This document shows positions 716 through 15,535 of a stretch of DNA of 25,411 bases, piece by piece (position 1 is the stretch's first letter; each line of letters begins with the position of its first letter). The position numbers were made by a program, and so were the translations under genes. The notes beneath the pieces were generated by a model. The model was not told where the DNA came from. It was given only the letters and a program-made list of their open reading frames with translations, and ran no database searches. The DNA is from a virus: positions 1 through 25,411 of the IMG/VR virus record IMGVR_UViG_3300026521_000474; one strand, written 5' to 3'.

Positions 716-1135
716 ATGAATAAGTCAATTTTTGATGAAGAAGATAATATTGTTGTATTAGGTGAAGATGATATAACATCAAGTAGTAACTTACCAGCAG
801 AAACAGAAGTCTCTATATATAGAGATGCAATTAGTGCAAAGTATAATTTGCTAATAAGTGCTTTTTTAGCATTTTTGACAGTTATATCAATAAGTGCAGG
901 AAATGCAGATATGAATTTAACTGTATTTTTAGCTTTAGTATCGTTACTATTAGCTATTCAATCTATTACGATAAGTGGTAAAAATATTGGTAGATTTTTT
1001 AAATACGGATTTAGACACCATAAACCAGTACCGCTGATTTATTATAGTTTTGTATTTAGTATTAGTATGGCTTATATTAATGGATATGCTGCATTACAGG
1101 CTTTAGGATTTATCAATAATTCATGGTGGGCATAA
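716..1135 (+). CDS. Small multi-pass membrane protein, function unknown
   Basis: The protein has 139 aa. An acidic cytosolic-looking N-terminus (residues 1-40) is followed by hydrophobic segments at about 45-62, 67-88 and 104-130, so three membrane passes are likely. A basic loop (KYGFRHHK) lies between the second and third. The start at 716 follows an AAGGA Shine-Dalgarno at about 707-711. It is the first gene of a five-gene + strand cassette just after the tail fibre and is abutted directly by the next gene. Size, topology and position would suit a holin or a membrane exclusion protein, but no endolysin is visible and no family is recognised, so I assign no function. Confidence 0.75.
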   Translation: MNKSIFDEEDNIVVLGEDDITSSSNLPAETEVSIYRDAISAKYNLLISAFLAFLTVISISAGNADMNLTVFLALVSLLLAIQSITISGKNIGRFFKYGFRHHKPVPLIYYSFVFSISMAYINGYAALQALGFINNSWWA

Positions 1136-1579
1136 ATGAAGAAGAATATTATTATTCTTCTTTTTGTTATTTTTTCATTTAATGGATGTTCTTTATGGAA
1201 TAAACCGAGTTATTATATGAGTATAGATATTGATAATAAAAAACATTTTTCAACTACAAATCAAAGTATTGAATTGTATAGATGTGAAACAACTATAAAT
1301 GATATTTGTTTATTATTTGATAAAAATGGAGATTTTATTAAAGAGACAATATCTCCAAAAAGATGTTTTATAATAAAGAAAAATCGTTATTGTCCAATAC
1401 CATCATTATTTCACGAACAGATAATAAATGACACAATGAGCAAAGATATGAAAATCAAACAGACACTTTTACGTGAAAATGCAAAAATTGAAGAAGAAGA
1501 TGCAGAAGTAAATGAAAAAAAGCTCACTTTTGCACAAAGAATGAGAAAAAAATACTTACACAAAAAAGAGGAGGACTAA
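1136..1579 (+). CDS. Putative lipoprotein, function unknown
   Basis: This 147-aa protein has a short basic N-terminus, a hydrophobic stretch (IIILLFVIFSF) and a lipobox FNGC with the acylated Cys at residue 18, so it should be lipidated and anchored in an envelope membrane. The mature part has several Cys (about 50, 58, 77 and 86) that could form disulphides in the periplasm. The last ~45 residues are strongly charged and helical, a possible peptidoglycan- or partner-contacting coil. ATG follows the upstream TAA without any gap, implying translational coupling. A lipoprotein beside small membrane proteins recalls spanin pairs, but the length and Cys content do not match a known spanin family. 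Confidence 0.75.
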   Translation: MKKNIIILLFVIFSFNGCSLWNKPSYYMSIDIDNKKHFSTTNQSIELYRCETTINDICLLFDKNGDFIKETISPKRCFIIKKNRYCPIPSLFHEQIINDTMSKDMKIKQTLLRENAKIEEEDAEVNEKKLTFAQRMRKKYLHKKEED

Positions 1580-1867
1580 ATGTCATTACCAATATCTACA
1601 ATTATAAGTTTAGCAAGTAGTTTTATAGAAAATAAAACAGGAAACCCTATAAAAAGGGCAGCTGTAGGTACAATAAAAGCACCAGTTACAGCACCAACAG
1701 CAGTAGTAGAAACAATTCAAGAAAAACCAGCACAAAGTGTTACGATAGCAGGACTAGGAGCTATAGCATCAAGTTATATGCAAAGTGAGCAAGATATAAA
1801 TATCTATGAATATGTAACAGATTGGCTAGAGATATTAACAAATTTTGCTATAGATATGTGGGGATGA
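1580..1867 (+). CDS. Small hydrophobic/Ala-rich protein, function unknown
   Basis: The protein has 95 aa and starts right after the previous stop, with a strong GAGGAGG Shine-Dalgarno at 1567-1573. An amphipathic N-terminal helix (PISTIISLASSFI) leads to a basic Gly/Asn stretch, then a Pro/Ala/Thr/Val-rich linker, a short hydrophobic segment (VTIAGLGAIASSYM, about 54-67) and an amphipathic C-terminal helix ending in DMWG. Its stop overlaps the start of the next gene (ATGA at 1864-1867). It is probably membrane-associated. I do not recognise the family; a phage holin-like role is only a guess from context. Confidence 0.65.
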   Translation: MSLPISTIISLASSFIENKTGNPIKRAAVGTIKAPVTAPTAVVETIQEKPAQSVTIAGLGAIASSYMQSEQDINIYEYVTDWLEILTNFAIDMWG

Positions 1868-2043
1868 TAAAGCTAGCAGTACAGATAATATTAGTAATAT
1901 TTATACTAGCTTATATATCAGATCCAGGTATTTTAGATGATGTTTTAGACATAAAAGATGATATAGTAGATACTAGTATTGATGCTGTAGATAGTATTGA
2001 TATAAATAAAATCAAAGATAGAGCAAAAGAGATATTAGAATAA
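1864..2043 (+). CDS. Single-pass small membrane protein (59 aa)
   Basis: The start is placed at ATG 1864, which overlaps the TGA of the preceding gene in an ATGA junction. An upstream in-frame Met at 1822 would lie deep inside that gene and is not preferred. The protein begins MIKLAVQIILVIFILAYI, one clear transmembrane helix at about residues 3-20, then an acidic tail rich in Asp, Ile and Val with a D-I-K/D-D periodicity that suggests a helical or coiled-coil periplasmic domain. This is the layout of small phage inner-membrane proteins such as i-spanins or anti-holins. Assignment to lysis is inference from size, topology and neighbouring lipoproteins. Confidence 0.7.
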   Translation: MIKLAVQIILVIFILAYISDPGILDDVLDIKDDIVDTSIDAVDSIDINKIKDRAKEILE

Positions 2044-2060
2044 AGATTCTAATATCTTTT
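2030..2060 (+). terminator. Stem-loop with T-tract after the 59-aa gene
   Basis: A perfect 12-bp inverted repeat (AGATATTAGAAT at 2030-2041, ATTCTAATATCT at 2046-2057) has a 4-nt loop and is followed by TTT. It overlaps the stop codon of the upstream gene. The stem is AT-rich, so termination may be partial, which could set the ratio between the membrane genes and the downstream lipoprotein. Confidence 0.5.
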
Positions 2061-2087
2061 ATGCTACCATTTTTAAAAAGGAAAGAT

Positions 2088-2723
2088 ATGAAAAAAAGAT
2101 TAAGTATAGTATCTATAGCATTAGCTATGTTTTTAGGTGGATGTTCAGCAAATATAGCCACAACGGTAAAGATGAGTGAGCTACTAGATAACAAATCAAA
2201 ACAGTTGAATGGAGAGTTATATATAGAAGTATCTAGTTGTAATAATTTTGAAGATTCACGAAAGGAATCAGAGAATCTGATAAAAACTAGAAAAGCTATA
2301 TTAAATGGTTTTACTGATTCAAAATACAATCAATGTTTTAAAAAGAGCTTTACAAGCTATGCTATGTTTAATGTACCAGTTCAACTAGCTCATGATAAAA
2401 ATAGCATATCATCAAAGTATATAAATCTTATCACAGATAGAAATTATCTTTTATCTTTAAACATACCAAAAGATTTACAAAAAAATATTTACAGAATACA
2501 AAAAGATAATATAACTAAAAGTAAGATAAATGTAGGTATAAAAGTTATCAATGATATAAAAGATGTACCATTTACTGCATTGTCAGTTTTTATCGATGAT
2601 GTACCATTTATAGCAAAACAATTAACATCGCATAAAAACACAAGTTTTATCATGAAACTTTCAGATGTATCTGTACAAACGGCTTTGAAAGAAGATCTTG
2701 CAATCATATTATTAAGACAATAA
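2088..2723 (+). CDS. Putative lipoprotein (211 aa), function unknown
   Basis: ATG 2088 is chosen over the in-frame ATG 2061. It follows an AAAAGGAAAG Shine-Dalgarno at 2076-2085, and it gives a clean lipoprotein signal (MKKRLSIVSIALAMFLGGC, Cys19), whereas 2061 falls right after a terminator-like stem. The mature protein has a Cys pair (about 43 and 75) and mixed alpha/beta character, including KINVGIKVINDIKDVPFTAL, with no catalytic motif I recognise. It closes the five-gene + strand cassette, and a tandem AAAAAGCTATC repeat follows it. A surface lipoprotein on a phage genome may act in exclusion or conversion if the phage is temperate; that is inference. Confidence 0.75.
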   Translation: MKKRLSIVSIALAMFLGGCSANIATTVKMSELLDNKSKQLNGELYIEVSSCNNFEDSRKESENLIKTRKAILNGFTDSKYNQCFKKSFTSYAMFNVPVQLAHDKNSISSKYINLITDRNYLLSLNIPKDLQKNIYRIQKDNITKSKINVGIKVINDIKDVPFTALSVFIDDVPFIAKQLTSHKNTSFIMKLSDVSVQTALKEDLAIILLRQ

Positions 2724-2825: not shown

Positions 2826-3305
2826 ATGAGCTTACAGCATGGATTTATTGGACAAATTGAAGTAGAAAAAGCAAGAGAAGAATTTAGTAGCACTTATATA
2901 TGTTCAGACGGTAGCTTTTGGAAAAAAAATATATTTTGCGAAAGACCACATACTGGAAATATTATAAAAGGGTGTGAATATGATGATATTGAAGAGTTGC
3001 TTGGATATTATACTGAATCATTTTTAGACACATTTAATACCAAAAAAGATATTGAATTATTTGAAGAAAAGACTTATGAATTAGATGCTGATATTAAAAA
3101 TGAAATATTGGCTATACTTGCTGAAAACAAAACAGCATATATGCTTGATGATAATGTATCAGATGATAAAAATATGTTAATTTCAGATAGAGTTACAGAT
3201 GGACAAGAAACTTTGTTTTTTACGACAGAAGAAGCATGGGAAGAATTAAACAAAGATTATGATAAAGTAAATGAAACATTGGTTATTTGGTTACTAAGAT
3301 TATGA
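2826..3305 (+). CDS. Hypothetical acidic protein upstream of parA
   Basis: This 159-aa soluble acidic protein has no signal peptide and no recognised domain. Aromatic and acidic residues are frequent (EEFSSTYICSDGSFW, DDIEELLGYY), and the C-terminus ends in a hydrophobic WLLRL. An AAAAGGG Shine-Dalgarno lies at about 2812-2818. Its TGA stop (3303-3305) overlaps the ATG of the ParA gene (3302), so the two are translationally coupled and this protein probably belongs to the same functional unit. It could be a third partition component or a regulator of the pair; neither can be shown from sequence alone. Confidence 0.7.
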   Translation: MSLQHGFIGQIEVEKAREEFSSTYICSDGSFWKKNIFCERPHTGNIIKGCEYDDIEELLGYYTESFLDTFNTKKDIELFEEKTYELDADIKNEILAILAENKTAYMLDDNVSDDKNMLISDRVTDGQETLFFTTEEAWEELNKDYDKVNETLVIWLLRL

Positions 3306-3940
3306 TAGTAACATTTGGACATGACAAAGGTGGTGTTGGCAAAAGCACCACAGCTATAAATCTAAGCGTATTAGCAAATAAAGACTATGATCTAACAGTT
3401 ATAGATCTTGATCCAAAAAGACAGTTTAGTTTTTTTAATAGCAAAAGAAAAGAAAAAAAACAGATAAAACAATATGATGCAAAAAATCCAAAAGATTTAG
3501 TAAAATTTGCAAAAAACTATGATGGACTTATCTTTATTGATCTTGGAGGATTTGATAGTAATATGTTTCGTACTGCTCTACTTATATCAGATATTGTAGT
3601 AGTTCCTCTAAGCGATAGTGATAATGATATTTTAGGATTAAAAGATTTTAATGATATGCTAATTGATATTCAAAATTCAAAAAAGAACAAAAAAATATCA
3701 TTTGAAATTGTATTATTATTAAATAGACTACATCATGCGAATAAATCAGCTCATAAAGGACTTAGTAAATTTGCAAAGAAATATGACTTTTCTATTTTTG
3801 ATACTATCATAAGAGAAAATGCAATATATAAAAATATGCTTTTTTGTGGTAAAAGTGCGACTGAACAAACAGATAAAAACCCATCAAAAAATGTAAAAGA
3901 GTTATATAAAGAATTAAAAAACAAAATGGAGAAAAGATAA
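3302..3940 (+). CDS. parA: ParA/MinD-family partition ATPase
   Basis: The protein has 212 aa from ATG 3302. A longer TTG-start reading upstream is rejected because ATG 3302 forms an ATGA overlap with the preceding stop. The deviant Walker A box KGGVGKST has the signature Lys at 9 and the P-loop Lys at 14. The A' motif is VIDLDP (Asp35, Asp37) and Walker B is LIFID (Asp80). ParA ATPases without an N-terminal HTH (type Ib, about 200-220 aa) segregate low-copy plasmids by dynamic binding to nucleoid DNA and usually pair with a small RHH centromere-binding protein. Exactly such a gene follows with a TAATG overlap. In a phage genome this suggests plasmid-like prophage maintenance. A less likely role is positioning of another cellular cargo. 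Confidence 0.9.
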   Translation: MIVTFGHDKGGVGKSTTAINLSVLANKDYDLTVIDLDPKRQFSFFNSKRKEKKQIKQYDAKNPKDLVKFAKNYDGLIFIDLGGFDSNMFRTALLISDIVVVPLSDSDNDILGLKDFNDMLIDIQNSKKNKKISFEIVLLLNRLHHANKSAHKGLSKFAKKYDFSIFDTIIRENAIYKNMLFCGKSATEQTDKNPSKNVKELYKELKNKMEKR

Positions 3941-4170
3941 TGGCAAAAGATAAATTTGATGATATATTAGAAGATGAAATTATAAAAAAAGCAAGTGCAA
4001 AAATGAGTGATAATGATGAAGATGATGAAGAGTCAGAAAAACAACATCAATTTATACTCAGATTCAAAAACAAAGCAGAGTATAAAAAAGTACAGAAATA
4101 TGCAAAAGCAAAAAAATTAACAGTTACATCACTTTTACTAAATATGCTAGTAAAAAAAGGCATAATATAG
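3940..4170 (+). CDS. Ribbon-helix-helix protein, likely ParB/ParG-like partner
   Basis: This 76-aa protein has an unstructured, strongly acidic N-terminal tail (residues 1-35). It is followed by a short beta strand (QHQFILRF, about 35-42), a helix from KAEYKKVQKYAKAKK and a second helix from TVTSLLLNMLVKKG. Strand-helix-helix at this size fits the MetJ/Arc (RHH) fold, which binds DNA as a dimer through the paired strands. In type Ib partition systems, the RHH protein binds the centromere, often also represses its operon, and stimulates ParA through its flexible N-terminal tail. The gene overlaps parA by one base (TAATG) with a GGAG Shine-Dalgarno. Fold assignment rests on pattern only. Confidence 0.75.
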   Translation: MAKDKFDDILEDEIIKKASAKMSDNDEDDEESEKQHQFILRFKNKAEYKKVQKYAKAKKLTVTSLLLNMLVKKGII

Positions 4171-4178: not shown

Positions 4179-4213
4179 TATATAAAAGATATTAAAAAGC
4201 TATCTTTTATATA
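4179..4213 (+). terminator. Stem-loop downstream of the parA/RHH operon
   Basis: A perfect 13-bp inverted repeat (4179-4191 with 4201-4213) encloses a 9-nt loop, TTAAAAAGC. The right arm contains TTTT. It lies 8 bp after the RHH stop codon and could terminate the partition operon, or as an inverted repeat could be an operator/centromere for the RHH dimer. It includes one copy of the AAAAAGCTATC motif. Confidence 0.5.
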
Positions 4214-4419: not shown

Positions 4420-5217
4420 ATGGCAATATGTCAAGTTTGTAAAAAGCAAATTAATAAAACATTTAGGCTAAAAAATGCTAGACATCTTACTGGTGAAAAG
4501 GTTTGTTTAAATTGCTATCAAAATTTAGAGAATCATATAAATCAATCATTACTTTTTAGTGATGATTGGGATAGTAGTAATATGATCTCATTTGACTTTG
4601 ATAAAGAATTAGATTATGAAGAGTTTAAAGAGTTTATGATAAATAAACTAAACTATGAAAATATGACTGTATTTTACAAAGAGATAGATATGAATCCTCG
4701 CACAGCCGTACAAACCTGGAAAAAGAAAAAAGAGATACCTTTTTTGGTTCAGGCATATATTCAAAATAAAATAGATAGTATCAATAATATTGATAGTAAG
4801 ATTGAAACTAAATTTGTAGAGATTACAAAGTTTGAAGAAAGAAAATTAATGGATAATAATACTTTAATCTTTATTATTACTTTATTGAAACAAGAGCTTT
4901 ATTATCTTTATAGCAGAAGACATAATGAAAACAATGGTGGAATTTGTAAACCAAATGCTTTAACTCTTGTAAAATATCTTAAAAGTTTACATGCAAAATA
5001 TGACATAAATAAAAATGTAGAACTTGAACATATTCATTCTACATTTTTATCAAAAGATGATCTTGAGATTTTTATAGGAAAGAAATATAAGTATGGTATT
5101 CTATTATCTTTTGATAATAGAATACCAAAACATATAGCTAGATTTAAATATCTATGGATACAATTTTCTTCATCAAGAACTCTTTTATCTTATATTAAGT
5201 TAAAATCTATAATTTAA
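4420..5217 (+). CDS. Zinc-knuckle protein with a possible HTH segment
   Basis: The protein has 265 aa. The N-terminus has two CxxC pairs (Cys4/Cys7 and Cys29/Cys32) that form a treble-clef or zinc-ribbon-like metal site. Residues about 82-115 (FYKEIDMNPRTAVQTWKKKK then EIPFLVQAYIQ) read like a helix-turn-helix of the phage-repressor type, with a conserved-looking Trp and IP turn. The rest is lysine-rich and helical. The gene ends the + strand block and overlaps the stop of the convergent beta-barrel gene by 18 bp. Next to partition genes, a regulator or replication-control protein is plausible. No specific family is recognised, so function remains open. Confidence 0.7.
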   Translation: MAICQVCKKQINKTFRLKNARHLTGEKVCLNCYQNLENHINQSLLFSDDWDSSNMISFDFDKELDYEEFKEFMINKLNYENMTVFYKEIDMNPRTAVQTWKKKKEIPFLVQAYIQNKIDSINNIDSKIETKFVEITKFEERKLMDNNTLIFIITLLKQELYYLYSRRHNENNGGICKPNALTLVKYLKSLHAKYDINKNVELEHIHSTFLSKDDLEIFIGKKYKYGILLSFDNRIPKHIARFKYLWIQFSSSRTLLSYIKLKSII

Positions 5218-5826
5218 TCCAACAGTTGATATAGAGATATTATCAATAAGTGTTATCTCTTTTTCATCTGTTACACTTATATGATCTACTTTTAGATAAT
5301 CATATTTTATTAGAATAGATATATTATTTGTAACTGGTACAGATACCATTGCATTTGCACCATAAGCAAAACTATCACTAGTATCATTAACTATAGTTAG
5401 ATCAGATTCTAGTAACTTTGCTTGAGAGTATCCAACTAAAATACCTGCTTTGAATTCTATCCAATCAAAATCATAAATTGTATTTAGATTTAAATATATA
5501 TTTTGTATGCTATAAAGCTCTTCATCATATTTATGATAATTTATACCTAAATCATATTTATCTTTTTTTGATATACCTGTGCTAAAAATAGTAGAAGTAC
5601 TATTCGCAGTAAGTGATATGTAATAGTTGCTATCATCAGCTACTATAGTAGTATTTAGTTCTATAGTTTCAATATCCTTATATGGTATAAAATAATCGCT
5701 ATCTTTAAAACCATCAGATACATCTTTTATCTGAATAACTTTTTTTTTGCCATCAGACATAACAGAATCACTATATGCAAAACAATTTATAGTAATTAAC
5801 AATAAACTTAATATAATTCTTTTCAT
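5200..5826 (-). CDS. Small outer-membrane beta-barrel protein
   Basis: This 208-aa protein has a Sec signal peptide (MKRIILSLLLITINCFAYSD, cleavage near residue 18-20). The mature part alternates polar and aromatic residues in strands such as IELNTTIVADDSNYYISLTA and ends in VGLNYRF. A C-terminal Phe is the usual BAM recognition signal for outer-membrane barrels. The length suits an eight-stranded barrel. It starts one base after the upstream lipoprotein gene with an AGGAG site and so is the last gene of the phage late operon. A barrel plus a lipoprotein would alter the host surface, for example to block superinfection; this role is inferred. The 3' end overlaps the convergent + strand gene. 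Confidence 0.75.
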   Translation of the reverse strand: MKRIILSLLLITINCFAYSDSVMSDGKKKVIQIKDVSDGFKDSDYFIPYKDIETIELNTTIVADDSNYYISLTANSTSTIFSTGISKKDKYDLGINYHKYDEELYSIQNIYLNLNTIYDFDWIEFKAGILVGYSQAKLLESDLTIVNDTSDSFAYGANAMVSVPVTNNISILIKYDYLKVDHISVTDEKEITLIDNISISTVGLNYRF

Positions 5827-5827
5827 C

Positions 5828-7042
5828 TTATTCTCCTACACATCTAATTGGAATGCCTACCGCATTACCTACATCTTGACTAAAACTACCATCAAAAAAG
5901 TAAAATGAATTTTGTTCAAAACTACTTGACCATAAAGCAATTTTATCATCTACTTTGTACTCTCTTTTATCATTTAAAATTACGCCATTATTTGGAAGCT
6001 TTAAAAAACTATCAAACCCATTCTCAATATCTTCATCTAAAATCTCTTGCTTTGATGCTACATGAAAACCTATCGGACATACTCCATTTATATTGTTAGT
6101 CCAAAAGTTCTGTCTACTTTGTACACTTGCACTACTCCAATCATCATCTATATCATCTGTTTCAGAAAATGACAACCCGTCACTTCCCCATTGGAAATAT
6201 ATACCATAACAATTTAAATCAATAGCATCTGTACATACTCTACTTGCACCTATGTTTCTATCTAACCATATTTTAGAAGTTGTAGGAGATACAACTGTAT
6301 CATAGCTCATACCTCTAAATACAACTTTATTATTATCATAAAGCCCAGCTGCAATATCTTGTCTTGTACTATTTAGATCTAGTTCAAAGTTAGAAGCTGA
6401 ACTATTAAGTGACTTAGTTTTTAGTATAATTGCTTTTTGTGAACTACTATTTGAAGCAATAATTGCTTCACTAAATATATCATCAATAGTACTATTTATA
6501 TCTATATTAGTGATAGTTTTAGTAAAAGTACTTGTACTATTTTTATCAGTTAATATAGCATAAAGCAGTATAGATAATTTTGCTAGATCAGTATCGTTAT
6601 TATCTATATAATCAGATTCAAATTCATCTGTTGTTTTACCAAAGATTGATATTAAGTTGTTTTTCAAAGTAGTATCATCTTTTATAAATGTGGTTATTGG
6701 TGATATGATAAGGCTATCATAGCTAGTCATATTTATATCAAATGATAGATTTGTATCTAGTAGCTCACCACCACTGGTTGTAATAGGATATGTGATATTA
6801 GTATAAAATCTATACACTCCAGTACCTATATAGATAGCTGTATTATTATCATCATCTTTTACAATTGCATTTTTTATATATCCATCAAGAACTGTTACAT
6901 CTATAGTTGTATTTTTATCTGTTGAGTTGTTTTCTGTTGTAGTATTGTTTTCAACAGTTGTATTATTCTCATTTGATGTTTGCTCAAAATTTTGGCAACC
7001 ACTAAATAAAAACAATAACAATATTATCGTAATATATCTCAT
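5828..7042 (-). CDS. Lipoprotein with FISUMP (Fibrobacter major paralogous) C-terminal domain
   Basis: The protein has 404 aa. Its signal peptide carries lipobox FSGC (Cys16), followed by a low-complexity Asn/Thr/Glu linker (about 20-46). Residues about 47-170 resemble a surface carbohydrate/peptidase-like repeat module (DGYIKNAIV, GVYRFY, SPITTFI). Residues 256-404 match the FISUMP pattern: KIWLDRNIGAS, YGIYFQWGSDG, VCPIGFHVASKQEI, ALWSSS and a final IPIRCVGE. FISUMP domains are found on secreted bacterial proteins and are thought to bind surface ligands; their role here is unknown. The start follows AAAGGA, only 2 bp after the spike gene, so it is translated with the tail genes. A cell-surface lipoprotein in a structural operon is unusual; receptor shielding or lysogenic conversion are candidate roles. 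Confidence 0.8.
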   Translation of the reverse strand: MRYITIILLLFLFSGCQNFEQTSNENNTTVENNTTTENNSTDKNTTIDVTVLDGYIKNAIVKDDDNNTAIYIGTGVYRFYTNITYPITTSGGELLDTNLSFDINMTSYDSLIISPITTFIKDDTTLKNNLISIFGKTTDEFESDYIDNNDTDLAKLSILLYAILTDKNSTSTFTKTITNIDINSTIDDIFSEAIIASNSSSQKAIILKTKSLNSSASNFELDLNSTRQDIAAGLYDNNKVVFRGMSYDTVVSPTTSKIWLDRNIGASRVCTDAIDLNCYGIYFQWGSDGLSFSETDDIDDDWSSASVQSRQNFWTNNINGVCPIGFHVASKQEILDEDIENGFDSFLKLPNNGVILNDKREYKVDDKIALWSSSFEQNSFYFFDGSFSQDVGNAVGIPIRCVGE

Positions 7043-7044
7043 AT

Positions 7045-7692
7045 TTATCCTTTTATTTTATCTATTTGAGATTTTAAGTTTGTAAATGCAGAGGCATTAT
7101 CTAAAGGAAATACTCCATCTGGAGTAGTAACTGTAGCACTTCCAAGTGCTGCTAAACTTTGTGATATTACTTCTAATACATTTACACCATTTAATTCAAT
7201 TTTTAAGCCTAAATCTGAAAGCTCAAAAAAACCTTTATCTGCAAAGTTCAATTTTATTGATGTAGTACTTTTTGCACTCCACCCTTTTATCTTTGTATTT
7301 AACTTTTCTTTTGATGGGAATCCAAAAGGAAGAGCTACAATATCAGCAATATTAAAACTTCTTTTAGTAGTAGCTACATCCATAACCAAAGTATCAAAAA
7401 AATCAGTATGATCTCTTTGAAGTGCTACACAAAGTAGATAATCCCCTATTTTAAATTCACTTGCACTAAATCCATCACTACTATAATTTTGTAAAAATTC
7501 TACATCTTCAATTATTGGAATAGTAAATATCTCATCATCTATCTGTCTTTTTAAAACAGGCTGAATAGATATAGTATCATTGCTATTTATAGCTTTTATT
7601 TGACCCATAAATGAAGTATTTAGCTTACTAATTTGGGATGCTATCGCTTCATCTAATATTGTATTGAAATCTGTACTCTGACTAGTATCCAT
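7045..7692 (-). CDS. Baseplate spike protein (Gp138/gpV-like)
   Basis: Starting at ATG 7692 gives 215 aa, with GGAG 7 bp upstream and an 11-bp overlap with the hub gene. ATG 7725, also with a GGAG, would add 11 residues and is possible. The N-terminal half has an OB-fold-like pattern (MGQIKAINSNDTISIQPVLK then IPIIEDVEFLQNY, FKIGDYLLCVAL) as in the Gp138 N-terminal domain of central spikes. The C-terminal part has short beta segments (IKLNFADKGFFELSDLGLKI), fitting the needle. The protein would form the trimeric membrane-piercing tip below the hub. Position right after the hub supports the call. It is short, so a separate tip may be absent. Confidence 0.8.
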   Translation of the reverse strand: MDTSQSTDFNTILDEAIASQISKLNTSFMGQIKAINSNDTISIQPVLKRQIDDEIFTIPIIEDVEFLQNYSSDGFSASEFKIGDYLLCVALQRDHTDFFDTLVMDVATTKRSFNIADIVALPFGFPSKEKLNTKIKGWSAKSTTSIKLNFADKGFFELSDLGLKIELNGVNVLEVISQSLAALGSATVTTPDGVFPLDNASAFTNLKSQIDKIKG

Positions 7693-8560
7693 CAATGCAC
7701 TCCAGTTTTGTAGTATATGGTCCATTGTAATTATCTCCAGTAAAAGTAGCAGTAGTGACTTTATAGTATCCATTTAAAGATTCTAGTGTCATATCTTGTT
7801 TTGCTATAGTGAGTGAGTTTTGTTTTACCTCATTTATATAGCTAGCATCAAGATATACTGTATCTCCTGGTATGATTGTAGGTATAAGCATAGAGCTTAT
7901 ATCTACTCCCATCTCTGTTTTTACTACCCCCTTATCTTTTAAAAGTCCGCTACTGCTTGAGATAACTATCGCTTTATTTATATCCAGTTTTTTAGTAAAA
8001 ATCTTGACTTTATTATCACTTATATGATATTTAAGATTATAGTTATTGCAAATACTATCAAGTGCATCTGCACTATTACCACATAAAATCTCTTTTGATT
8101 TTAGAGTGATTGACTTTTCTATATCCTCAAAATCAAGATTTAAATCAGATGATATTTTTTTTAGTACAGTTTGCATATCTTCCCCTTTTCTAAAAGAGAT
8201 ATTTGTTTTAGCTTTTTTTATATTCATAAAACCCTCTCCAGCTATAAATGTAGTGATCCAATTCACTCCACTAAGCGTATGCCAAATATTAGTACTCTCA
8301 CCACAAAATAGTATTTGATAGTTTTCTTCATATCCTGCACTTAAAACTATATTCATACTATTCTCACTCAATGCATCTCTTAACTCTTTATTTAGATTGT
8401 ATACCTCTATTTTAGCTTCATTTGGTGTTTTTACATTTGATTTTATTACATTAAAAGATATTTTTATATGCTCTTTTGGTTGTTTTGTAATCTCATTTAT
8501 TATATATTCTTTGCTATGTGTTGTGATTTTCAACTGTACAAATCTTTTGAACAATTTCAT
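7682..8560 (-). CDS. Baseplate hub protein (gp27/gpD-like)
   Basis: The protein has 292 aa. N-terminal beta-rich sequence (HIKISFNVIKSNV then PNEAKIEVYNL, LSAGYEENYQILFCGE) is typical for hub proteins of contractile tails, in which two tube-like domains form the trimeric ring joining tube and spike. The middle (LKKISSDLNLDF, NSADALDSICNNYNLKYHIS) matches the inserted alpha/beta domain, and the end returns to beta strands (MGVDISSMLIPTIIPGDTVY, GYYKVTTATFTGDN). The start ATG overlaps the TGA of the plug gene in an ATGA junction. It is flanked by plug and spike genes in the order common to cyanophage Pam3-type baseplates. Confidence 0.8.
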   Translation of the reverse strand: MKLFKRFVQLKITTHSKEYIINEITKQPKEHIKISFNVIKSNVKTPNEAKIEVYNLNKELRDALSENSMNIVLSAGYEENYQILFCGESTNIWHTLSGVNWITTFIAGEGFMNIKKAKTNISFRKGEDMQTVLKKISSDLNLDFEDIEKSITLKSKEILCGNSADALDSICNNYNLKYHISDNKVKIFTKKLDINKAIVISSSSGLLKDKGVVKTEMGVDISSMLIPTIIPGDTVYLDASYINEVKQNSLTIAKQDMTLESLNGYYKVTTATFTGDNYNGPYTTKLECIDGY

Positions 8561-8874
8561 AGTATCTCCTCTTTTGTTATATATATTAAAGAAAATCTTG
8601 CTTTAAAATCTTCAATAAAAGATGGTTCAGATTGAGTTGCATTTTGTGTATCTACTAGTATCAGATTACCTAATTCGCCAATTCCTACAGTTTTTAGAAA
8701 ATCAACATTTGGTACTAAAGCTATATTGTAAAATAGTACTTCATCATCTCTATACATAGAAAATAAAAAAGTATTAGCTGCAATACTCCACTTGAAATAA
8801 AAAGTTAGATCAATATTATCTAAATAGATATGATAATGAAATTTATAATTTTGATAAATTGGTAATATAATCAT
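8557..8874 (-). CDS. Baseplate plug protein (DUF6983/Pam3 gp18-like)
   Basis: This 105-aa protein has the plug-protein pattern FHYHIYLDNIDLTFYFKWS, then an aromatic-acidic stretch, NIALVPNVDFL, GIGELGNLILVDT. Small plug proteins of this type close the inner face between hub and Dit-like ring in myovirus baseplates. It lies 3 bp after the Dit-like gene and overlaps the hub gene. Family assignment is from remembered pattern and from gene order, not from a search. Confidence 0.65.
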   Translation of the reverse strand: MIILPIYQNYKFHYHIYLDNIDLTFYFKWSIAANTFLFSMYRDDEVLFYNIALVPNVDFLKTVGIGELGNLILVDTQNATQSEPSFIEDFKARFSLIYITKEEIL

Positions 8875-8877
8875 AAT

Positions 8878-9450
8878 CTAACCTAAAATACTACTAAGCC
8901 AACTAACATTTTGAGATGCTGCTGGTATGCCTTGCACGGTACCTTTATTTTGACTACTAGCAGTACTACTTTTAATGTCATCATGAACTAAATCTTGTTT
9001 AATATCTTTTGAGTTTATCTCTACTATTGTAAACTTTTTAAAGCCAATATCTACAAACAAAGCATTAGATTTATCTTTATCTCTAGTTACAATTATAGAT
9101 GTTATAGCCATACTATCAAATACATCTAGTCCAGTAGATACAGTTACTAAAATTCTGTTATCTCTCAAGCTTTTTAACTCATCATAAAATTTTTTTGCAT
9201 CATTTGTATCTTTGTAATATAATAGCGAGATAGGACTATTTGAAACTATTCCAGATACTTTTATATCATAAGGTTTATTTATGATATGGTCGTTTACTAT
9301 TGATCCATCTTGCAAGACAATATCTGTAGTTTCGCTAGTAAATGTATATGTTTCACTTGTGCTTACATCTAGTGAATTGTATTTATCTTCTTTTTCATCG
9401 ATCACTGTAAAAAGCAATTTATTTGATAATAATATTGAACTTAAACTCAT
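8878..9450 (-). CDS. Dit-like baseplate/distal tail protein
   Basis: The protein has 190 aa. Residues about 25-75 (FTSETTDIVLQDGSIVNDHI then KPYDIKVSGIVSN) match the N-terminal beta-barrel of Dit-like phage tail proteins, which form the ring connecting the tail tube end with the hub. The C-terminal third (about 155-190) is rich in Ser, Gln and Asn and probably flexible. ATG 9450 directly follows the tape measure stop. Position between tape measure and plug is as expected for this role. Confidence 0.75.
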   Translation of the reverse strand: MSLSSILLSNKLLFTVIDEKEDKYNSLDVSTSETYTFTSETTDIVLQDGSIVNDHIINKPYDIKVSGIVSNSPISLLYYKDTNDAKKFYDELKSLRDNRILVTVSTGLDVFDSMAITSIIVTRDKDKSNALFVDIGFKKFTIVEINSKDIKQDLVHDDIKSSTASSQNKGTVQGIPAASQNVSWLSSILG

Positions 9451-11340
9451 CTAAAACACCCTACTTGCGATATTGTTTCCAGCAGTTCGTAAAGCATCTA
9501 CTAAACTATTTGTAGTTTGTTGATCCATATTCCCATGAACAGTAACTGGTATAGATATATCTGTCTTTACATTTGATGAGCTAACTGTATTTGATGTAGT
9601 CTGATGATTTGCTACTTGTGAAATTGGTGATGGTTCAGTTGTTTTATCTGAACCACCAAACCCAAAGAAATCAAGTGTATTATCAAAACCATTACTTAGT
9701 GTGTTTTTGACATTTTCAAGAGGTGCAGTTACAGCATCTAGTCCTTTGTTTAGTGCTTCTTTTGCTTTATTAAAAGGACCCATAACCGTGTCCATAAAGT
9801 TCTTGAACATAGCTTTAAGACTGTCTATCTGTTTTTTTATAGTACCTTTTCCAAAAATATCACTAAAAATAGATTTGATACTTTCTATTATAGGAGATAT
9901 TAAAGCTAACTGTTTATTTAAAAAAGTATCAAAAGATATTTTACCAGTGATCAGATCCCAAGTTGCACCAAAAGACTTTTCAAGTCCACTAAAAATAGAT
10001 TTGATACTTTTTATTATAGGGGATATTAAAGCTAACTGTTTATTTAAAAAGGTATCAAAAGATATTTTACCAGTGATCAGATCCCAAATATTGCCAATAA
10101 AATAACTAAATCCACTAAAAATAGATTTTATTTTATTAAATACAGTACTGATAATAGCTGATATTATTGGAAACTTTTTAGAAAAGTTATCAAACATATC
10201 AGCTATCTTTTGGAAATAATCTCCAAACAAGCTTTTACCACCTTCAGTCCAGACTTTAAAATCTTGATAAAGTAAAATTAAACCAGCAATTAATGCACCT
10301 ATTGCAAGAGGTATAAGCATAGCTTTGACTTGAGCCATTAAAGCTTCATTCCCAAATAATTTAAATCCAGTAGCAGCTAACTTTAATACACTAAACAAAG
10401 CAGTTAAACTTTGACCTACTTTAAATAAAGCCAATCCACCTAAAGCAAATCCTACTATTTTTAATATTTTTTCCCAACCGCCGAAACTTTGAGCGATATT
10501 ATCTATCCAAGTTATCAGCTCTTTTACAACAGTAATGAAACCCATAATAAATTTTGTTAAAGATTCGATAAATACACCTAATCGTTGATGAATAACTTTT
10601 TTATTTACCATATACCAGTCGTTAAATTTTTTCATTAGATTACTAAAAACAGGTATAAATTTACTCGTAAGCATATTTGATAAACCCTCAAATACTTTTG
10701 TAGTATTATCCATATTATCACCAAAATCTGCACTATCTTTTATCATCTGTGGAGATTTTATAGCACCTAGTTCCACTGCTTGTTTTTTCATAGCTTCTAT
10801 ACTACTAGAACCATCTTGTAGCATAGTTATCATGCTACTATCAAGTCCAAGTTGACCTGCTAAATTTTTTTTTAGACCTGCATCATTAATCGAAGCAAAA
10901 GCATCACTAACCTCACTCATCACATCTGTTGTATCTTTCATCATACCATTTGAATCTGTAAGACTAATACCCATCATTTTAAAAGCTTGTATAGCACTTC
11001 CCGTTCCCATAGATGCTTCTTGCATCTTACTTTCAAGATTTGTAAAACTAGATATAAATGATTCTTGAGAGCCACCAGCTTGTTCACTAGCGTAGATATA
11101 TTGCTGTAACTCATCCGTATTTAAAGATATTTTACTAGCAGTTTTACCTATAACATCAGCAGCATCTGCACTACTTTTAGATAGTGCAAAAATACCTCCG
11201 GTAGCTATTGTAGCTACTCCTGTCAAAGCTTTAAGTCCACTTTTCACAGTATTTACACCCTCTTCAAATCTCTTTAAATCTTTTGTATCGGCATCTACAC
11301 CTAAAATAATTGATAAGCTTTCTAATATACTTTTACCCAC
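9451..11340 (-). CDS. Tail tape measure protein
   Basis: The protein has 629 aa and starts at GTG 11340, overlapping the end of the frameshifted chaperone by 8 bp. The N-terminal part is helical (SILESLSIILGVDADTKDL then LKRFEEGVNTVKSG) with small-residue segments. Hydrophobic stretches lie at about residues 295-325 and 340-360 (PLAIGALIAGLILLYQDF), as in tape measures that insert into the host membrane. Residues about 405-495 contain two near-identical 42-residue units with WDLITGKISFDTFLNKQL. The C-terminus has Pro/Ser/Thr-rich linkers. The protein fixes tail length and is ejected ahead of DNA. At 0.15 nm per residue the tail would be at most about 90 nm, rather short for a myovirus. Confidence 0.9.
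   Translation of the reverse strand: MGKSILESLSIILGVDADTKDLKRFEEGVNTVKSGLKALTGVATIATGGIFALSKSSADAADVIGKTASKISLNTDELQQYIYASEQAGGSQESFISSFTNLESKMQEASMGTGSAIQAFKMMGISLTDSNGMMKDTTDVMSEVSDAFASINDAGLKKNLAGQLGLDSSMITMLQDGSSSIEAMKKQAVELGAIKSPQMIKDSADFGDNMDNTTKVFEGLSNMLTSKFIPVFSNLMKKFNDWYMVNKKVIHQRLGVFIESLTKFIMGFITVVKELITWIDNIAQSFGGWEKILKIVGFALGGLALFKVGQSLTALFSVLKLAATGFKLFGNEALMAQVKAMLIPLAIGALIAGLILLYQDFKVWTEGGKSLFGDYFQKIADMFDNFSKKFPIISAIISTVFNKIKSIFSGFSYFIGNIWDLITGKISFDTFLNKQLALISPIIKSIKSIFSGLEKSFGATWDLITGKISFDTFLNKQLALISPIIESIKSIFSDIFGKGTIKKQIDSLKAMFKNFMDTVMGPFNKAKEALNKGLDAVTAPLENVKNTLSNGFDNTLDFFGFGGSDKTTEPSPISQVANHQTTSNTVSSSNVKTDISIPVTVHGNMDQQTTNSLVDALRTAGNNIASRVF
9862..10130 (-). repeat. 126-bp direct repeat in the tape measure gene
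   Basis: Units start at 9862, 9988 and (partial) 10114. The exact period is 126 bp (42 codons). The first two are nearly identical over about 100 bp, with only a few substitutions, indicating recent duplication or ongoing homogenisation. Confidence 0.9.
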
Positions 11341-11850
11341 GATTTAACTCACTTTGTTTTTTATTTTGTTCATTTATATGATTGATACTCTCTTTAAACA
11401 TAGGATAATCCATGGTTTGTATCTCAGTTGGTGAAGTATTAAAAAAGCTTGCCATTTGAATAATAGATTTTCTTAATTCTCTTTTTGCTTTAATGACATC
11501 TTCATCACACCAGTCTGAATGTTTGCTTTTATTTTGTTCATATCTATACCCAGTCGTTTTAGTATTTTGGACTTTCCCAGCGATTCTAAACCAAGTTGTA
11601 GATTTATAGCTTCACCTAAAAGATCTATATATTCATATACTTCAAATTCATCAGGATCAAAATCTTGAAGATCTACTTTTATATTTTTCAATATATTATT
11701 TCTTACAAATACACCTGGCTCTTTTATTTTATCAAAATCTTTTAATTTTACTATCAGACTAAAAACTTGCTCAGGATTTAATCTATCTATTTGTATCTCT
11801 TTCATTTCATCTTCACCTACACTGAAAGTGTAAAATAATCCTTTTGCCAT
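11333..11850 (-). CDS. Tail assembly chaperone, -1 frameshift product (172 aa)
   Basis: The chaperone frame starting at ATG 11850 shifts by -1 at GGGAAAG (11572-11578, - strand) and then reads to TAA 11333-11335. The first 93 residues are shared with the short form. The next 79 come from the overlapping frame and include WCDEDVIKAKRELRKSI, MASFFNTSPTEIQTMDYPMF and a polar end. This frame is open, has protein-like composition and fills the otherwise empty 130 bp before the tape measure gene. In lambda (gpG/gpGT) and P2 (gpE/E') the longer product binds the tube while the shared domain coats the tape measure; the ratio matters for assembly. The shift is inferred from sequence but follows the established arrangement exactly. 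Confidence 0.85.
11473..11850 (-). CDS. Tail assembly chaperone, short form (gpG-like)
   Basis: This 125-aa acidic helical protein is the zero-frame product, ending at TAA 11473. ATG 11850 has an AAAGGA Shine-Dalgarno. The N-terminal strand-rich part (GLFYTFSVGEDEMKEIQID) and the helical part with DLQDFDPDEFEVYEYIDLLG are typical of chaperones that keep the tape measure soluble before tube polymerisation. The gene lies between tail tube and tape measure, the invariant position for this function. Most ribosomes are expected to make this form. Confidence 0.85.
   Translation of the reverse strand: MAKGLFYTFSVGEDEMKEIQIDRLNPEQVFSLIVKLKDFDKIKEPGVFVRNNILKNIKVDLQDFDPDEFEVYEYIDLLGEAINLQLGLESLGKSKILKRLGIDMNKIKANIQTGVMKMSLKQKEN
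11572..11578 (-). promoter_or_regulatory. -1 ribosomal frameshift slippery site G GGA AAG
   Basis: The heptamer GGGAAAG is in register with the chaperone frame: the zero-frame codons are GGA (residue 92) and AAG (residue 93). It fits X XXY YYZ and is identical to the published lambda G/GT slippery sequence. I did not find a strong downstream stem by eye; lambda also lacks an obvious one. Confidence 0.85.
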
Positions 11851-11869
11851 TTTCTAATTCCTTTCTTTA

Positions 11870-12271
11870 TTATAATAAATTCATGATCGTAGGATCTACT
11901 AGCATGATCTGTACTTTTGTATCTTGATGAGCTTCTTTACCTCTTTTAGCACTAGGTCGATTTATAACATACGATTGACCAGAAACTACTACTTCATCTG
12001 CAGATGCTGGATCTTGAACGATAAAAGCAAAAACAGCGCCTTTTAGTGCAAATAACATTTTTGCACTATTGCTACCTTGCTGGAAAGTCAAAGTTGCTAT
12101 ATAGTTGTTGTTTGTTGATTCGCTTCTTATTACATTTCCATCTGCTCCAGTATGAGTAGCATAAAGATTTTCTTCTTCAGGAACTATCTCTATCATACTA
12201 TCATCTGCAAAACCACTTAGTGCTATACCATTTGCTAGATATACTAGCTCTTTCGCTCTATATGTATACAT
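11870..12271 (-). CDS. Tail tube protein (DUF3277-like)
   Basis: The protein has 133 aa. Beta-rich sequence without signal peptide (ELVYLANGIALSGFADDSMI, NNYIATLTFQQGSNSAKML) resembles the KPP10-type tail tube family (DUF3277), whose subunits stack in hexameric rings around the tape measure. NNNYIATLTF is typical of the tube family's central strand. It starts at ATG 12271, overlapping the sheath stop by one base, and is followed by the chaperone gene: sheath, tube, chaperone, tape measure is the canonical order. Confidence 0.85.
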   Translation of the reverse strand: MYTYRAKELVYLANGIALSGFADDSMIEIVPEEENLYATHTGADGNVIRSESTNNNYIATLTFQQGSNSAKMLFALKGAVFAFIVQDPASADEVVVSGQSYVINRPSAKRGKEAHQDTKVQIMLVDPTIMNLL

Positions 12272-13302
12272 TATATTGTCACCGTTCCTTTAATTTTTAA
12301 AGCATGAATACTATGTAAGTAGTCAAATATATAAAGATCTTCAAGTATAATATCTCTACCACCTGGCAAATCTGCAGCAAGTGGTATATTGATCTCTAAA
12401 GTTGATTTATCTACTATATTCCTTTTAGCACCTTCGTCCATCACCTCGACTACTGCACCTTTTATCTTCAATAAAGTGGTGTCATTTTTTGGCATATCTG
12501 CATCTAGCATAATATCAACTATTCTTAAGTCTATAGCATGATCTATATAGTCTATACCTCTTTTAATATCTGCAAACCAACCATTTCCAGCTAATATATT
12601 TTTTGTAACTGCATTATCTTGAATATCTACTACATACCCACATCTCTTATCTGTTAGAACTTGCTTATGGGTAGCTGTAAGATTGTCTACTGCTAAACCT
12701 TTTAAAGTTCTATTTTCCCAAGATTCACCTTCATCAATACTATAAATTCTTCCTAAAATAGATGTATCTGCAAACTCATCTGTTTTATTATGATAAATTA
12801 CATTTGTTTTTTGATGCTGTTTAGTTTTTATATAAGTTGCTATATCATCTGTAGCTCCATCATCTAAAATGTTTGCTGCATTTGAAGATATTACGAATCT
12901 TAATCTTTGAGGATTTACTTCAACTTTATCTGCTATCTCTTTTAATTTATCTTCACCAGTAAGTGTAGTAGCTAAAAAATAAGCTCCACCACCTTTTTGT
13001 ATAAAATCCTCTATAGCTGTATCAATATCTTCATCATCTGCCATTCCTAGCAAAAATAGTTCCGCAGGTGATTCTTTTTGATTGAAAAAACTATATGCTT
13101 TTTTATATTCAATAGTTGAATCATTAAAATCTTTAGATAGATCTGATAGATTCAGATACTTCTTATATCTTTGATCTTTGTCAATAATTGCATCTTCTTC
13201 AGGTATATCTATCACTAAAGCTACTTGATTAAATCCAGCAAAAACAACACCACTCTCACTTACACTTGTGGTGGTTTTTATTATTGCACTCATATCACTC
13301 AT
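12271..13302 (-). CDS. Tail sheath protein (DUF3383-like)
   Basis: This 343-aa protein has the sheath layout of strand-rich N-terminus, alpha/beta middle (ELFLLGMADDEDIDTAIEDF then FLATTLTGEDKLKEIADKV) and a C-terminal domain with NGWFADIKRGIDYIDHAI and a final IHALKIKGTVTI. It fits the DUF3383 sheath family of KPP10-type myoviruses and the gene precedes the tail tube. The sheath contracts around the tube to drive it through the envelope. ATG 13302 is well placed, with AGGAG 8 bases upstream. It is the main evidence that this phage has a contractile tail. Confidence 0.85.
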   Translation of the reverse strand: MSDMSAIIKTTTSVSESGVVFAGFNQVALVIDIPEEDAIIDKDQRYKKYLNLSDLSKDFNDSTIEYKKAYSFFNQKESPAELFLLGMADDEDIDTAIEDFIQKGGGAYFLATTLTGEDKLKEIADKVEVNPQRLRFVISSNAANILDDGATDDIATYIKTKQHQKTNVIYHNKTDEFADTSILGRIYSIDEGESWENRTLKGLAVDNLTATHKQVLTDKRCGYVVDIQDNAVTKNILAGNGWFADIKRGIDYIDHAIDLRIVDIMLDADMPKNDTTLLKIKGAVVEVMDEGAKRNIVDKSTLEINIPLAADLPGGRDIILEDLYIFDYLHSIHALKIKGTVTI

Positions 13303-13303
13303 A

Positions 13304-13789
13304 TTATATCTCCTTTATTTTCCCATTAAAATTTATACTGTCTATTATCTCAAGCTCTATTGAAGACTCTAAACTAAAGTACATAAAACAACTCAATAAA
13401 TATCTCTCTTCAAAACCATCATCATATGCTATACTAGTATTTATCATAGTTTCATCTTGTATTGATAAGATCTGAAGTGAGTTAATAGTTGAACTCTTTG
13501 ATATGCTTTGCATTAACTTCAATGCTAAAAAATCTGTATCCTTCCCATAAAACTCTATCTCCACTTTTTGTTTATATTTATGTAGTGTTTTCTGGACTAA
13601 AGTATCATTTATTGTTTTTGTAAAATTAGTATCATTTACAATTCCTAACTCTTTAATATCTACAAAATCAACTGTTATAAATCTATCATCTTCTATTTTT
13701 GTATTTCTATGTTTTAGATATACTTCTAGTCCTGAACTGTCTTTTATCCAATCATAAATATTATTTTTAATTACTCTATATTCTTCCAG
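13304..13789 (-). CDS. Tail terminator/neck protein (LIC_12616-like), probable CTG start
   Basis: A standard start would give only 86 residues from GTG 13564, but the same frame stays open upstream to an in-frame stop just before CTG 13789. CTG is preceded by AGGAG with a 6-base spacer. The only ATG, GTG or TTG in frame after it is GTG 13564. The extended 161-aa product begins LEEYRVIKNNIYDWIKDSSG and continues into VYLKHRNTKIEDDRFITVDF and then VDIKEL, which fits the alpha/beta tail-terminator fold (LIC_12616 family, about 150-170 aa). It overlaps the preceding connector gene by 14 bp and abuts the sheath. The protein would cap the tail tube and sheath at the head end. CTG as start is inferred; ATT at nearby codons is an alternative. 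Confidence 0.7.
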   Translation of the reverse strand: MEEYRVIKNNIYDWIKDSSGLEVYLKHRNTKIEDDRFITVDFVDIKELGIVNDTNFTKTINDTLVQKTLHKYKQKVEIEFYGKDTDFLALKLMQSISKSSTINSLQILSIQDETMINTSIAYDDGFEERYLLSCFMYFSLESSIELEIIDSINFNGKIKEI

Positions 13790-14108
13790 TTTTTACTCCT
13801 AAATATATATTAAAATCATCTCTTAGCAACTCTACTGCTTCGATGATCTTATATTTTATATTGTTATATAAAATAAAATTATTTACTTCTATTTTCTCAT
13901 TTGTTAAAAATCTCATATCATGTACAGTTTGAATAGTATCTACAAACTTATTTTTAGTATTTGCACTTTCGGCTACTACATCAATATTATTGATACTAAT
14001 CTCTTCACTTATATCAAATTTATCTTTTACCTGTACTATAGTATGAAGTTCTGCTACATCTCCACTAAAGCGGTGCATCATCCTAAAACTTTTTATAACT
14101 CTTGCCAT
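13776..14108 (-). CDS. Neck/head-tail connector protein, unassigned
   Basis: The protein has 110 aa and its start overlaps the upstream gene by 16 bp. Beta-rich sequence (MMHRFSGDVAELHTIVQV, EVNNFILYNNIKYKIIEAVE, LRDDFNIYLGVKTGRI) resembles the small beta-barrel head-tail stoppers (gp16/gpFII-like), in which IKYKIIEA is a typical central strand. It lies between the HK97-gp10-like gene and the tail terminator, the expected place for a stopper. The family is inferred from size, strands and context only. Confidence 0.55.
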   Translation of the reverse strand: MARVIKSFRMMHRFSGDVAELHTIVQVKDKFDISEEISINNIDVVAESANTKNKFVDTIQTVHDMRFLTNEKIEVNNFILYNNIKYKIIEAVELLRDDFNIYLGVKTGRI

Positions 14109-14554
14109 GAGATGCTCTTCATCAATAATCCACTATCCCTAAGCGGTGTATTGTTTCCTTTTTTTCTTTTTATAGTTTGTTTTTTATTTGCTGCAAATGG
14201 TACACCACCAGCTCTTATGGTTTTTTTAATCTCATTGGCAAACCATACTCCTGTTTGACCTCTTAGCTTACTACCATCTGCACCATCTACAACTACTTTT
14301 TTTGTTATCTCTTTTAACTTATTTTTAATAATATCTTTGTTTTTATCTGCTGTACTTCTGATAAAACTTCTTTTTGGTATACCTCTTTTAGCACTTCCAA
14401 ATTCATGTATCATCGCTACATCTAAAACACTTACACCACTATTAGGATACTTCAATGTATCAAATACACCTACTGCTATACTTCCTTTTAACTTCATAAT
14501 TCTTTTGGTAAGCCCTTCTATACCACCATTCATTTTTTTATGAATTAAACTCAT
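14093..14554 (-). CDS. HK97 gp10-like neck/tail completion protein
   Basis: This 153-aa protein shows features of the gp10/gpG virion morphogenesis group: VAMIHEFGSAKRGIPKRSFI (the E-x-G...P-x-R-x-F/Y-x motif) and a basic tail with KKQTIKRKKGNNTPLRDSG, ending in LLMKSISW (S-G-x-L-x-x-S-I/V pattern). Such proteins act as neck or tail-completion proteins that join the tail to the connector. The start ATG 14554 has no clear Shine-Dalgarno; it lies directly downstream of a 22-bp tandem repeat and may depend on a different initiation route. Confidence 0.8.
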   Translation of the reverse strand: MSLIHKKMNGGIEGLTKRIMKLKGSIAVGVFDTLKYPNSGVSVLDVAMIHEFGSAKRGIPKRSFIRSTADKNKDIIKNKLKEITKKVVVDGADGSKLRGQTGVWFANEIKKTIRAGGVPFAANKKQTIKRKKGNNTPLRDSGLLMKSISWQEL

Positions 14555-14555
14555 A

Positions 14556-14605
14556 AGCTATCTTTTTTATATCTTTTAGCTATCATTTAAATATCTTTTA
14601 GCTAT
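14556..14605. repeat. 22-bp phased repeats, AGCTAT(C)...ATATCTTTT
   Basis: AGCT occurs at 14556, 14578 and 14600, exactly 22 bp apart, and each gap ends in ATATCTTTT. Two full units and a partial third fill the 47-bp spacer between the DUF4054-like gene and the gp10-like gene. Two-turn spacing puts the motif on one face of the helix. The AGCTATC(TTTT) core is shared with 2741-2766 and 4194-4208. Confidence 0.7.
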
Positions 14606-14964
14606 ATTACAATAGGCATCATAGTAATGCTTTTTTCTTTTAAATCTAAAAACTTTATACCATAAGGTGTTGATTTTAGAATATTATCTCTATCATCTAT
14701 ACTCTCTTTGAAACTAAAGCTTTGACCACCTGCACTATATGAAGTGATCTCTTTTCCTATAAACTCATCACCTTCTGCGATAAGTTTATTTAATTTTAGT
14801 TCATGAGCTGCAAGAGCTAAAACCGCTTCATCATAAAGTAAGCCATATTTATCACTCCATACTTTTTGCTGTGCAAAAAGTATTTGAGCATCTATAGTTT
14901 CATCACTCTCATCTTTAAATTCAGGATACAAACCTCGCAAAAGACTAGCTGTCAAAAGACTCAT
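14602..14964 (-). CDS. Head-tail connector/adaptor protein (DUF4054-like)
   Basis: This 120-aa protein is mainly helical. LRGLYPEFKDESDETIDAQI, then LFAQQKVWSDKYGLLYDEAV and LALAAHELKL match the helix bundle of head-to-tail adaptors. A Gly/Ser segment (SYSAGGQSFSF) fits the flexible loop seen in DUF4054 proteins. The adaptor ring sits beneath the portal. ATG 14964 overlaps the upstream coiled-coil gene by 20 bp and has AAAGG 7 bases upstream. The 22-bp repeat begins at its stop codon. Confidence 0.75.
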   Translation of the reverse strand: MSLLTASLLRGLYPEFKDESDETIDAQILFAQQKVWSDKYGLLYDEAVLALAAHELKLNKLIAEGDEFIGKEITSYSAGGQSFSFKESIDDRDNILKSTPYGIKFLDLKEKSITMMPIVI

Positions 14965-15535
14965 TTATAACCTTTAATATACTATTTTTAGCAGTCTTAT
15001 TTCCTGTGTCAATATTGTGTAGTGTTGCATAAACTTTTAGATCATCTGCTGTTACCTCTTCATCTTCTAATTCATGTAAAATCAACCTCGCTAAAGATTC
15101 ATTTTCTACTACTAAAGCATCTATATTATTAGTTAGATCAGTAACTTTATCTTCTAGCTCTATTGTTACTTTTGCATAATCTTCATTTTTTGCATTTAAT
15201 CTTTCAACCTCTTTTTTATGCTCTTCCAAATCTTTTTTTAATAGTTCATCTATTTTACTAGATCTATTTTCTAATGAATCTAAGATATTTTCTTTATCTT
15301 TTAACAAATTATTTTCTTTTAATTCATTTAAAAATTCATCAAAAGTTAGTTGAAAATTCTCATCTATTACAAATGATAAGAATTTATTTTCAGCATAAAC
15401 TTTTATATTTCCTAAATGCTTTTTTAATTCTATTAGATCAATATCATTTATGTTGATGTCACCTTGAGCTTCAAAATATATATTTCCAAAACTCAAAGGT
15501 CTATTTTGATTGTTTCTAATTTTTGTTACTCTCAT
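14945..15535 (-). CDS. Coiled-coil head-region protein, function unknown
   Basis: The protein has 196 aa. A short beta-like N-terminus (RPLSFGNIYFEAQGDININD) leads to a long coiled coil (about 75-145, rich in Glu, Lys and Leu). The C-terminal domain has DEEVTADDLKVYATLHNIDT and AKNSILKVIN, resembling a small HeH/LEM-type helical fold found in phage head proteins. It lies between the major capsid gene and the adaptor gene. The N-terminus may resemble the FluMu N-terminal domain of Mu-like phages; I am unsure. A head completion or capsid-accessory role is inferred from place. Confidence 0.6.
   Translation of the reverse strand: MRVTKIRNNQNRPLSFGNIYFEAQGDININDIDLIELKKHLGNIKVYAENKFLSFVIDENFQLTFDEFLNELKENNLLKDKENILDSLENRSSKIDELLKKDLEEHKKEVERLNAKNEDYAKVTIELEDKVTDLTNNIDALVVENESLARLILHELEDEEVTADDLKVYATLHNIDTGNKTAKNSILKVINESFDS

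Follow-up and report, generated by a model that had tools for sequence, protein, structure and literature searches.

A divergent DUF7424 phage lipoprotein, a candidate exclusion factor, encoded beside four orphan genes behind a phage tail-fibre gene

Five short genes directly behind the tail-fibre gene of a contractile-tailed phage raise the question of whether they form one envelope machine or are simply neighbours. The initial annotation had taken them for a single cassette of membrane proteins and lipoproteins, perhaps an unusual holin/spanin system or a complex excluding other phages, and for the best candidate for a new system. The window analysed here, a stretch of DNA of 25,411 bases, is an IMG/VR virus record whose gene content is that of a contractile-tailed phage. 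Its relevant features are as follows.

1–643, + strand: 3' end of the tail-fibre gene, with imperfect repeats containing DKLDNKSDTSHTHDDRYYTE; the reading frame extends past the left edge of the window
716–1135, + strand: P1, 139-residue membrane protein
1136–1579, + strand: P2, 147-residue lipoprotein
1580–1867, + strand: P3, 95-residue Ala/Pro-containing protein without a strong transmembrane segment
1864–2043, + strand: P4, 59-residue single-pass protein, its start overlapping the P3 stop (ATGA)
2027–2060, + strand: terminator-like hairpin with a 15 bp stem, the P4 stop codon lying inside it
2088–2723, + strand: P5, 211-residue lipoprotein of DUF7424 (PF24199)/phrog_3832, ribosome-binding site AAAAGGAAAGATATG
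3287–4170, + strand: ParA and a small partner of 76 residues
5200–5826, − strand: Omp-like β-barrel with a signal peptide; weak Pfam Opacity match, barely above the cut-off
5828–7042, − strand: 404-residue Asn/Thr-rich lipoprotein
− strand: TerL, portal, head-morphogenesis, head-maturation, capsid, connector, sheath, tape-measure, Dit-like and baseplate-hub proteins

The closest relatives of ParA are on Campylobacterota plasmids, the GC content of the window is 24–32% and a DNA invertase gene is present; on these grounds the host is probably campylobacterotan, and the element, as ParA and its partner suggest, is possibly a phage-plasmid. The late genes are split within the window, the tail fibre (1–643) being on the + strand and the other structural genes (5828–24726) all on the − strand. 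The baseplate wedge genes W, J and I are absent from it; they probably lie to the left of position 1, or else the phage is rearranged. Two genes on the − strand (5200–7042) follow the baseplate genes where the wedge genes would be expected; these, the Omp-like barrel and the 404-residue lipoprotein, are possible further surface-conversion genes. A near-perfect 17 bp hairpin (5092–5129) falls within the coding frame of a 265-residue ORF (4420–5217), with more inverted repeats close by (5009–5050).

All five are genuine genes: reading frames, ribosome-binding sites, codon signal and spacing are consistent throughout. With codon usage learned from the window's structural genes as the reference, the annotated frame of each gene scored higher than the other five frames and above shuffled sequences (z = 6.1, 2.7, 7.7, 5.6 and 7.1 for P1 to P5, respectively). 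The ORFs, their positions and their tight spacing (0 bp between P1 and P2 and between P2 and P3, the ATGA overlap of P3 and P4, and 44 bp between P4 and P5) were confirmed as annotated, as was their placement after the tail fibre, the repeats of which end near position 643, upstream of P1. P2 and P5 were also correctly called lipoproteins, with signal peptides ending in the lipoboxes FNGC and LGGC, respectively, each followed by a serine at position +2; P2 has four further cysteines and a charged C-terminus. A serine at this position marks a lipoprotein for the outer membrane by the Lol rule, a rule derived from Escherichia coli that is applied here to a probable campylobacterotan host. The description of P1 as a three-pass protein stands in part: after an acidic N-terminal tail there are two clear transmembrane segments (residues 44–62 and 68–86), whereas the third (about residues 107–128) falls below the hydropathy threshold of 1.3 and is assumed from the sequence. 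A basic loop (five Lys/Arg and two His) separates the second segment from this weak third one, and the charge pattern suggests an N-in/C-out topology. P4 has about 40 residues C-terminal to its transmembrane segment.

The coupling of P5 to the other four genes is less secure. The hairpin at 2027–2060 has a near-perfect stem, a four-nucleotide loop and a folding energy of −21 kcal/mol, compared with a shuffled mean of −5.75 kcal/mol (z = −7.0). Four near-perfect hairpins of this kind occur in the window, compared with between none and two per shuffle in ten shuffles, and another of the four (4179–4213) lies downstream of the stop codon that ends the gene for the small ParA partner and has a similar AAAAGATA...TATCTTTT arrangement. 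Because the hairpin at 2027–2060 encloses the stop codon of P4 and separates P5 from P1–P4, the view of the five genes as one unit was not confirmed, and they are probably not a single transcription unit. The hairpin is AT-rich and was not detected by a GC-based terminator scan, so partial read-through from P4 into P5 is possible. Promoter-like sites showed no excess (31 found, with 31.5 expected).

Profile searches of the individual proteins, as the initial annotation had proposed, gave a family for P5 and none for P1–P4, so its statement that no gene resembles a known component holds for the latter and fails for the former. P5 matches the Pfam family DUF7424 with an E-value of 1.1e-29 (104.1 bits, with a cut-off of 27), residues 22–204 aligning to positions 2–186 of the 196-position profile, and matches phrog_3832 with an E-value of 5e-19. 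Judged by these matches, P5 is a divergent and previously unrecorded member of a known, functionally uncharacterized family of phage lipoproteins; the literature searched contains no tested function for any DUF7424 protein. Invariant in the family alignment are the lipid-bearing cysteine, a cysteine pair (Cys51 and Cys83 of the precursor) and a C-terminal SDV motif.

An AlphaFold model of P5 built with an alignment of relatives (pLDDT 84.6, pTM 0.80; a run with too few relatives gave a pLDDT of 40) consists mostly of strands with four helices. Comparison of this model with BFVD gave matches with E < 0.001 that are DUF7424 proteins wherever they are named, the best named ones having an E-value of 1e-13 and TM-scores of 0.75/0.70. 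Sequence and structure comparison with the PDB gave no convincing solved-structure match, and the sequence and structure matches listed for P5 from the PDB include no entry for Llp, Cor or Ltp. Similarities found by Foldseek and VIA to the N-terminal domains of aminopeptidases, to FMO and to LppM (Z of about 5) were set aside as common β arrangements rather than signs of kinship. Single-protein scans of IMG/VR and GTDB contigs with P5 found nothing.

P1–P4 are orphans within the collections searched. None has relatives in Pfam, PHROGs, NCBIfam or PADLOC; P1, P2 and P3 gave no accepted relatives in phage and plasmid records (tblastn) or PDB sequences, a search that lay outside the genomes of the likely hosts, the Campylobacterota; a single-protein scan of IMG/VR with P1 found nothing; and local BLAST of the loci read here found none for P4. 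The phage-defence library returned only a weak match to P1. The matches of P1 to DUF5506, RTasSLATT (E = 0.0013) and F0F1 subunit A (E = 0.0017) and that of P3 to DUF5537 (E = 0.013) were rejected as membrane or composition noise. A marginal local similarity between P3 and a 66-residue protein of the lysis cluster of Sulfurimonas phage SNW-1 (reached in two of 500 shuffles, with 92 pairs tested) was not significant once the comparisons were counted and was rejected, as was a resemblance of P3 to 'EFVEEKTG' in phage G001.

Relatives of P5 are scattered patchily over unrelated kinds of phage. Those in Acinetobacter prophages share about 27–32% identity with it and one in a temperate phage of 61% GC (L129) shares 38%, while proteins of Kuttervirus and of Vibrio Ackermannviridae match the same Pfam model; in a sample of 398 Pseudomonadota genomes, three carry the domain. 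The gene stands immediately before the tape-measure gene in three Acinetobacter prophages (L132, L133 and L134) and after it in a further one (L009); in another Acinetobacter prophage (L010) it is preceded by a DUF6694 lipoprotein gene and a short ORF resembling a tape-measure C-terminus. The tape measures of L009, L132 and the window belong to the same PHROG, phrog_8125. In Kuttervirus the genes flanking it, one of them for a tail tube, are on the opposite strand, and in L129 it lies downstream of a helix–turn–helix gene and a membrane-flanked-domain gene, the latter filed as 'moron' in PHROGs. It also occurs in bacterial chromosomes beside small lipoprotein and membrane-protein genes (L128). 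DUF7424 is apparently a phage lipoprotein that moves horizontally and is retained by lytic Ackermannviridae and by temperate phages.

Two observations on these loci may be added. The DUF6694 gene (L010, 9601–9882) directly precedes that for DUF7424, and a different small lipoprotein gene does so in L128, raising the possibility of a recurring lipoprotein pair. A 4.08 Mb 'Proteus mirabilis plasmid' (NZ_OL790811.1; L005) carries the same DUF7424 gene as two IMG/VR prophage contigs (L008 and L011), and its label or assembly is doubtful.

Our preferred reading, held tentatively and at somewhat less than even confidence, is that P5 is a moron-type lipoprotein of the superinfection-exclusion or lysogenic-conversion type. 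Exclusion is favoured by analogy, because the placements of DUF7424 genes resemble those of the Llp and Ltp genes and because both lytic and temperate phages keep them. P5 would be made in infected or lysogenic cells and, given its Ser at +2, sorted to the outer membrane, where its β-rich domain might act as T5 Llp acts on FhuA, binding a phage receptor from within the periplasm; alternatively, it might target the incoming tail or tape measure, as does Ltp of phage TP-J34. Either kind of binding would leave related phages unable to inject. P1–P4 would then be a separate short operon of orphan envelope proteins with its own terminal hairpin, inserted in a variable slot behind the tail fibre, and could be either more conversion genes or a lysis module that has diverged. 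The exclusion role earlier proposed for the set is compatible with P5 as a moron-like lipoprotein encoded near a tape-measure or repressor-type gene, exclusion itself being argued by analogy. DUF7424 genes that adjoin a tape-measure gene may be expressed late instead of in lysogens.

The neighbourhoods of the relatives bear directly on whether the five genes work together. P1–P4 are tightly coupled, all five genes are coding, and two lipoproteins together with two membrane proteins would suit one envelope-spanning exclusion or secretion complex. However, relatives of P5 occur without P1–P4 in the loci searched, where local BLAST found no P1–P4 homologues; P4 and P5 are separated by a hairpin; and P1–P4 are found in no other record searched, Campylobacterota genomes being outside the search. 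The earlier proposal of a new five-gene system is not supported, and we regard a single complex as very improbable. Its specific form, a new exclusion complex of a Campylobacterota phage-plasmid with P1 and P4 in the inner membrane, P2 and P3 in the periplasm or outer membrane and P5 sensing or blocking tails, is marginally less probable still. The five genes are neighbours rather than a demonstrated machine. A benefit to the host unrelated to phage exclusion, with P1–P5 as lysogenic-conversion genes for envelope proteins that alter the surface or help against stress or predation, would agree with the chromosomal DUF7424 gene of L128 and its lipoprotein and membrane-protein neighbours, and with the barrel and long lipoprotein genes on the other strand of the same phage. 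A benefit confined to lysogens nevertheless leaves unexplained why lytic Ackermannviridae (Kuttervirus) retain DUF7424, and the adjacency of DUF7424 relatives to tape-measure genes also speaks against it; we consider it rather unlikely.

A part in lysis has to be judged separately for P5 and for P1–P4. For P5, the holin/spanin reading is contradicted by the prophage L134, in which a full holin/endolysin/Rz set lies about 2.6 kb from the DUF7424 gene: with a complete lysis module already present, a lysis role for P5 is improbable, and it behaves like a moron. In the other loci read, no lysis genes directly adjoin DUF7424, as the i-spanin or endolysin neighbour of an o-spanin would. For P1–P4 without P5, a diverged lysis module, in which P1 or P3/P4 would be the holin, P2 a spanin-like lipoprotein of the outer membrane and the endolysin would lie outside the 25 kb fragment, is a rather unlikely alternative. 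In several phages with a related TerL, lysis genes occupy the slot directly behind the tail fibre: an M15 peptidase with small transmembrane proteins and a lipoprotein in G001, genes that read as lysis-like by sequence in G002 and G003, a lysozyme in Bordetella IFTN9, and holin, endolysin and spanins in Magia. In Magia, however, two conversion genes come directly after the fibre, ahead of the lysis genes, and in 611R5, 13VT501A and NF the lysis genes are elsewhere, so position does not decide the role of P1–P4. The rejected similarity of P3 to the SNW-1 protein would point towards lysis; P1–P4 nevertheless match no lysis family, and none of the genes of the window that were searched against Pfam and/or PHROGs was recognized as an endolysin, although in a fragment one may lie outside. 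Class I holins have three transmembrane segments with the N-terminus out and the C-terminus in, the opposite of what the basic second loop of P1 suggests, and P4 and P2 are unlike the i- and o-spanins of SNW-1. The interest of these orphan genes depends on their proving to be the lysis module of a little-studied group of phages; should DUF7424 prove to be an exclusion factor, as our preferred reading of P5 has it, it would add a family to the lipoproteins that act in exclusion in Gram-negative hosts.

Several known systems resemble parts of the locus. The lysis modules of G001, IFTN9, Magia and SNW-1 occupy comparable positions, behind the tail fibre or closing the tail operon, and combine small membrane proteins with a lipoprotein, whereas P1–P5 include no recognizable endolysin, holin or spanin. 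T5 Llp is a small lipoprotein that jams the receptor FhuA from the periplasm; its gene is next to, and downstream of, that for the receptor-binding protein (PMC9586334). Llp and Cor share with P5 the character of cysteine-containing phage lipoproteins, and the position of the Llp gene directly downstream of the receptor-binding protein gene is also similar, but P5 is about three times longer and no sequence or fold match between them was seen. Ltp of TP-J34 is a lipoprotein of the lysogeny module, described as a likely moron (PMC3952083); its target is the tape measure according to a paper cited there. Just as Ltp is moron-like and tape-measure-linked, DUF7424 genes abut the tape measure or lie near a repressor-type gene, although Ltp is a Gram-positive cytoplasmic-membrane lipoprotein for which neither sequence nor fold was seen to match P5. 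The DUF7424/phrog_3832 proteins of Kuttervirus, Vibrio Ackermannviridae and Acinetobacter prophages differ from P5 in setting, since P5 lies behind a tail-fibre gene and beside four orphan genes in a phage whose ParA is closest to those of Campylobacterota plasmids, but share with it the lipobox, the invariant cysteine pair, the C-terminal SDV motif and the predicted fold.
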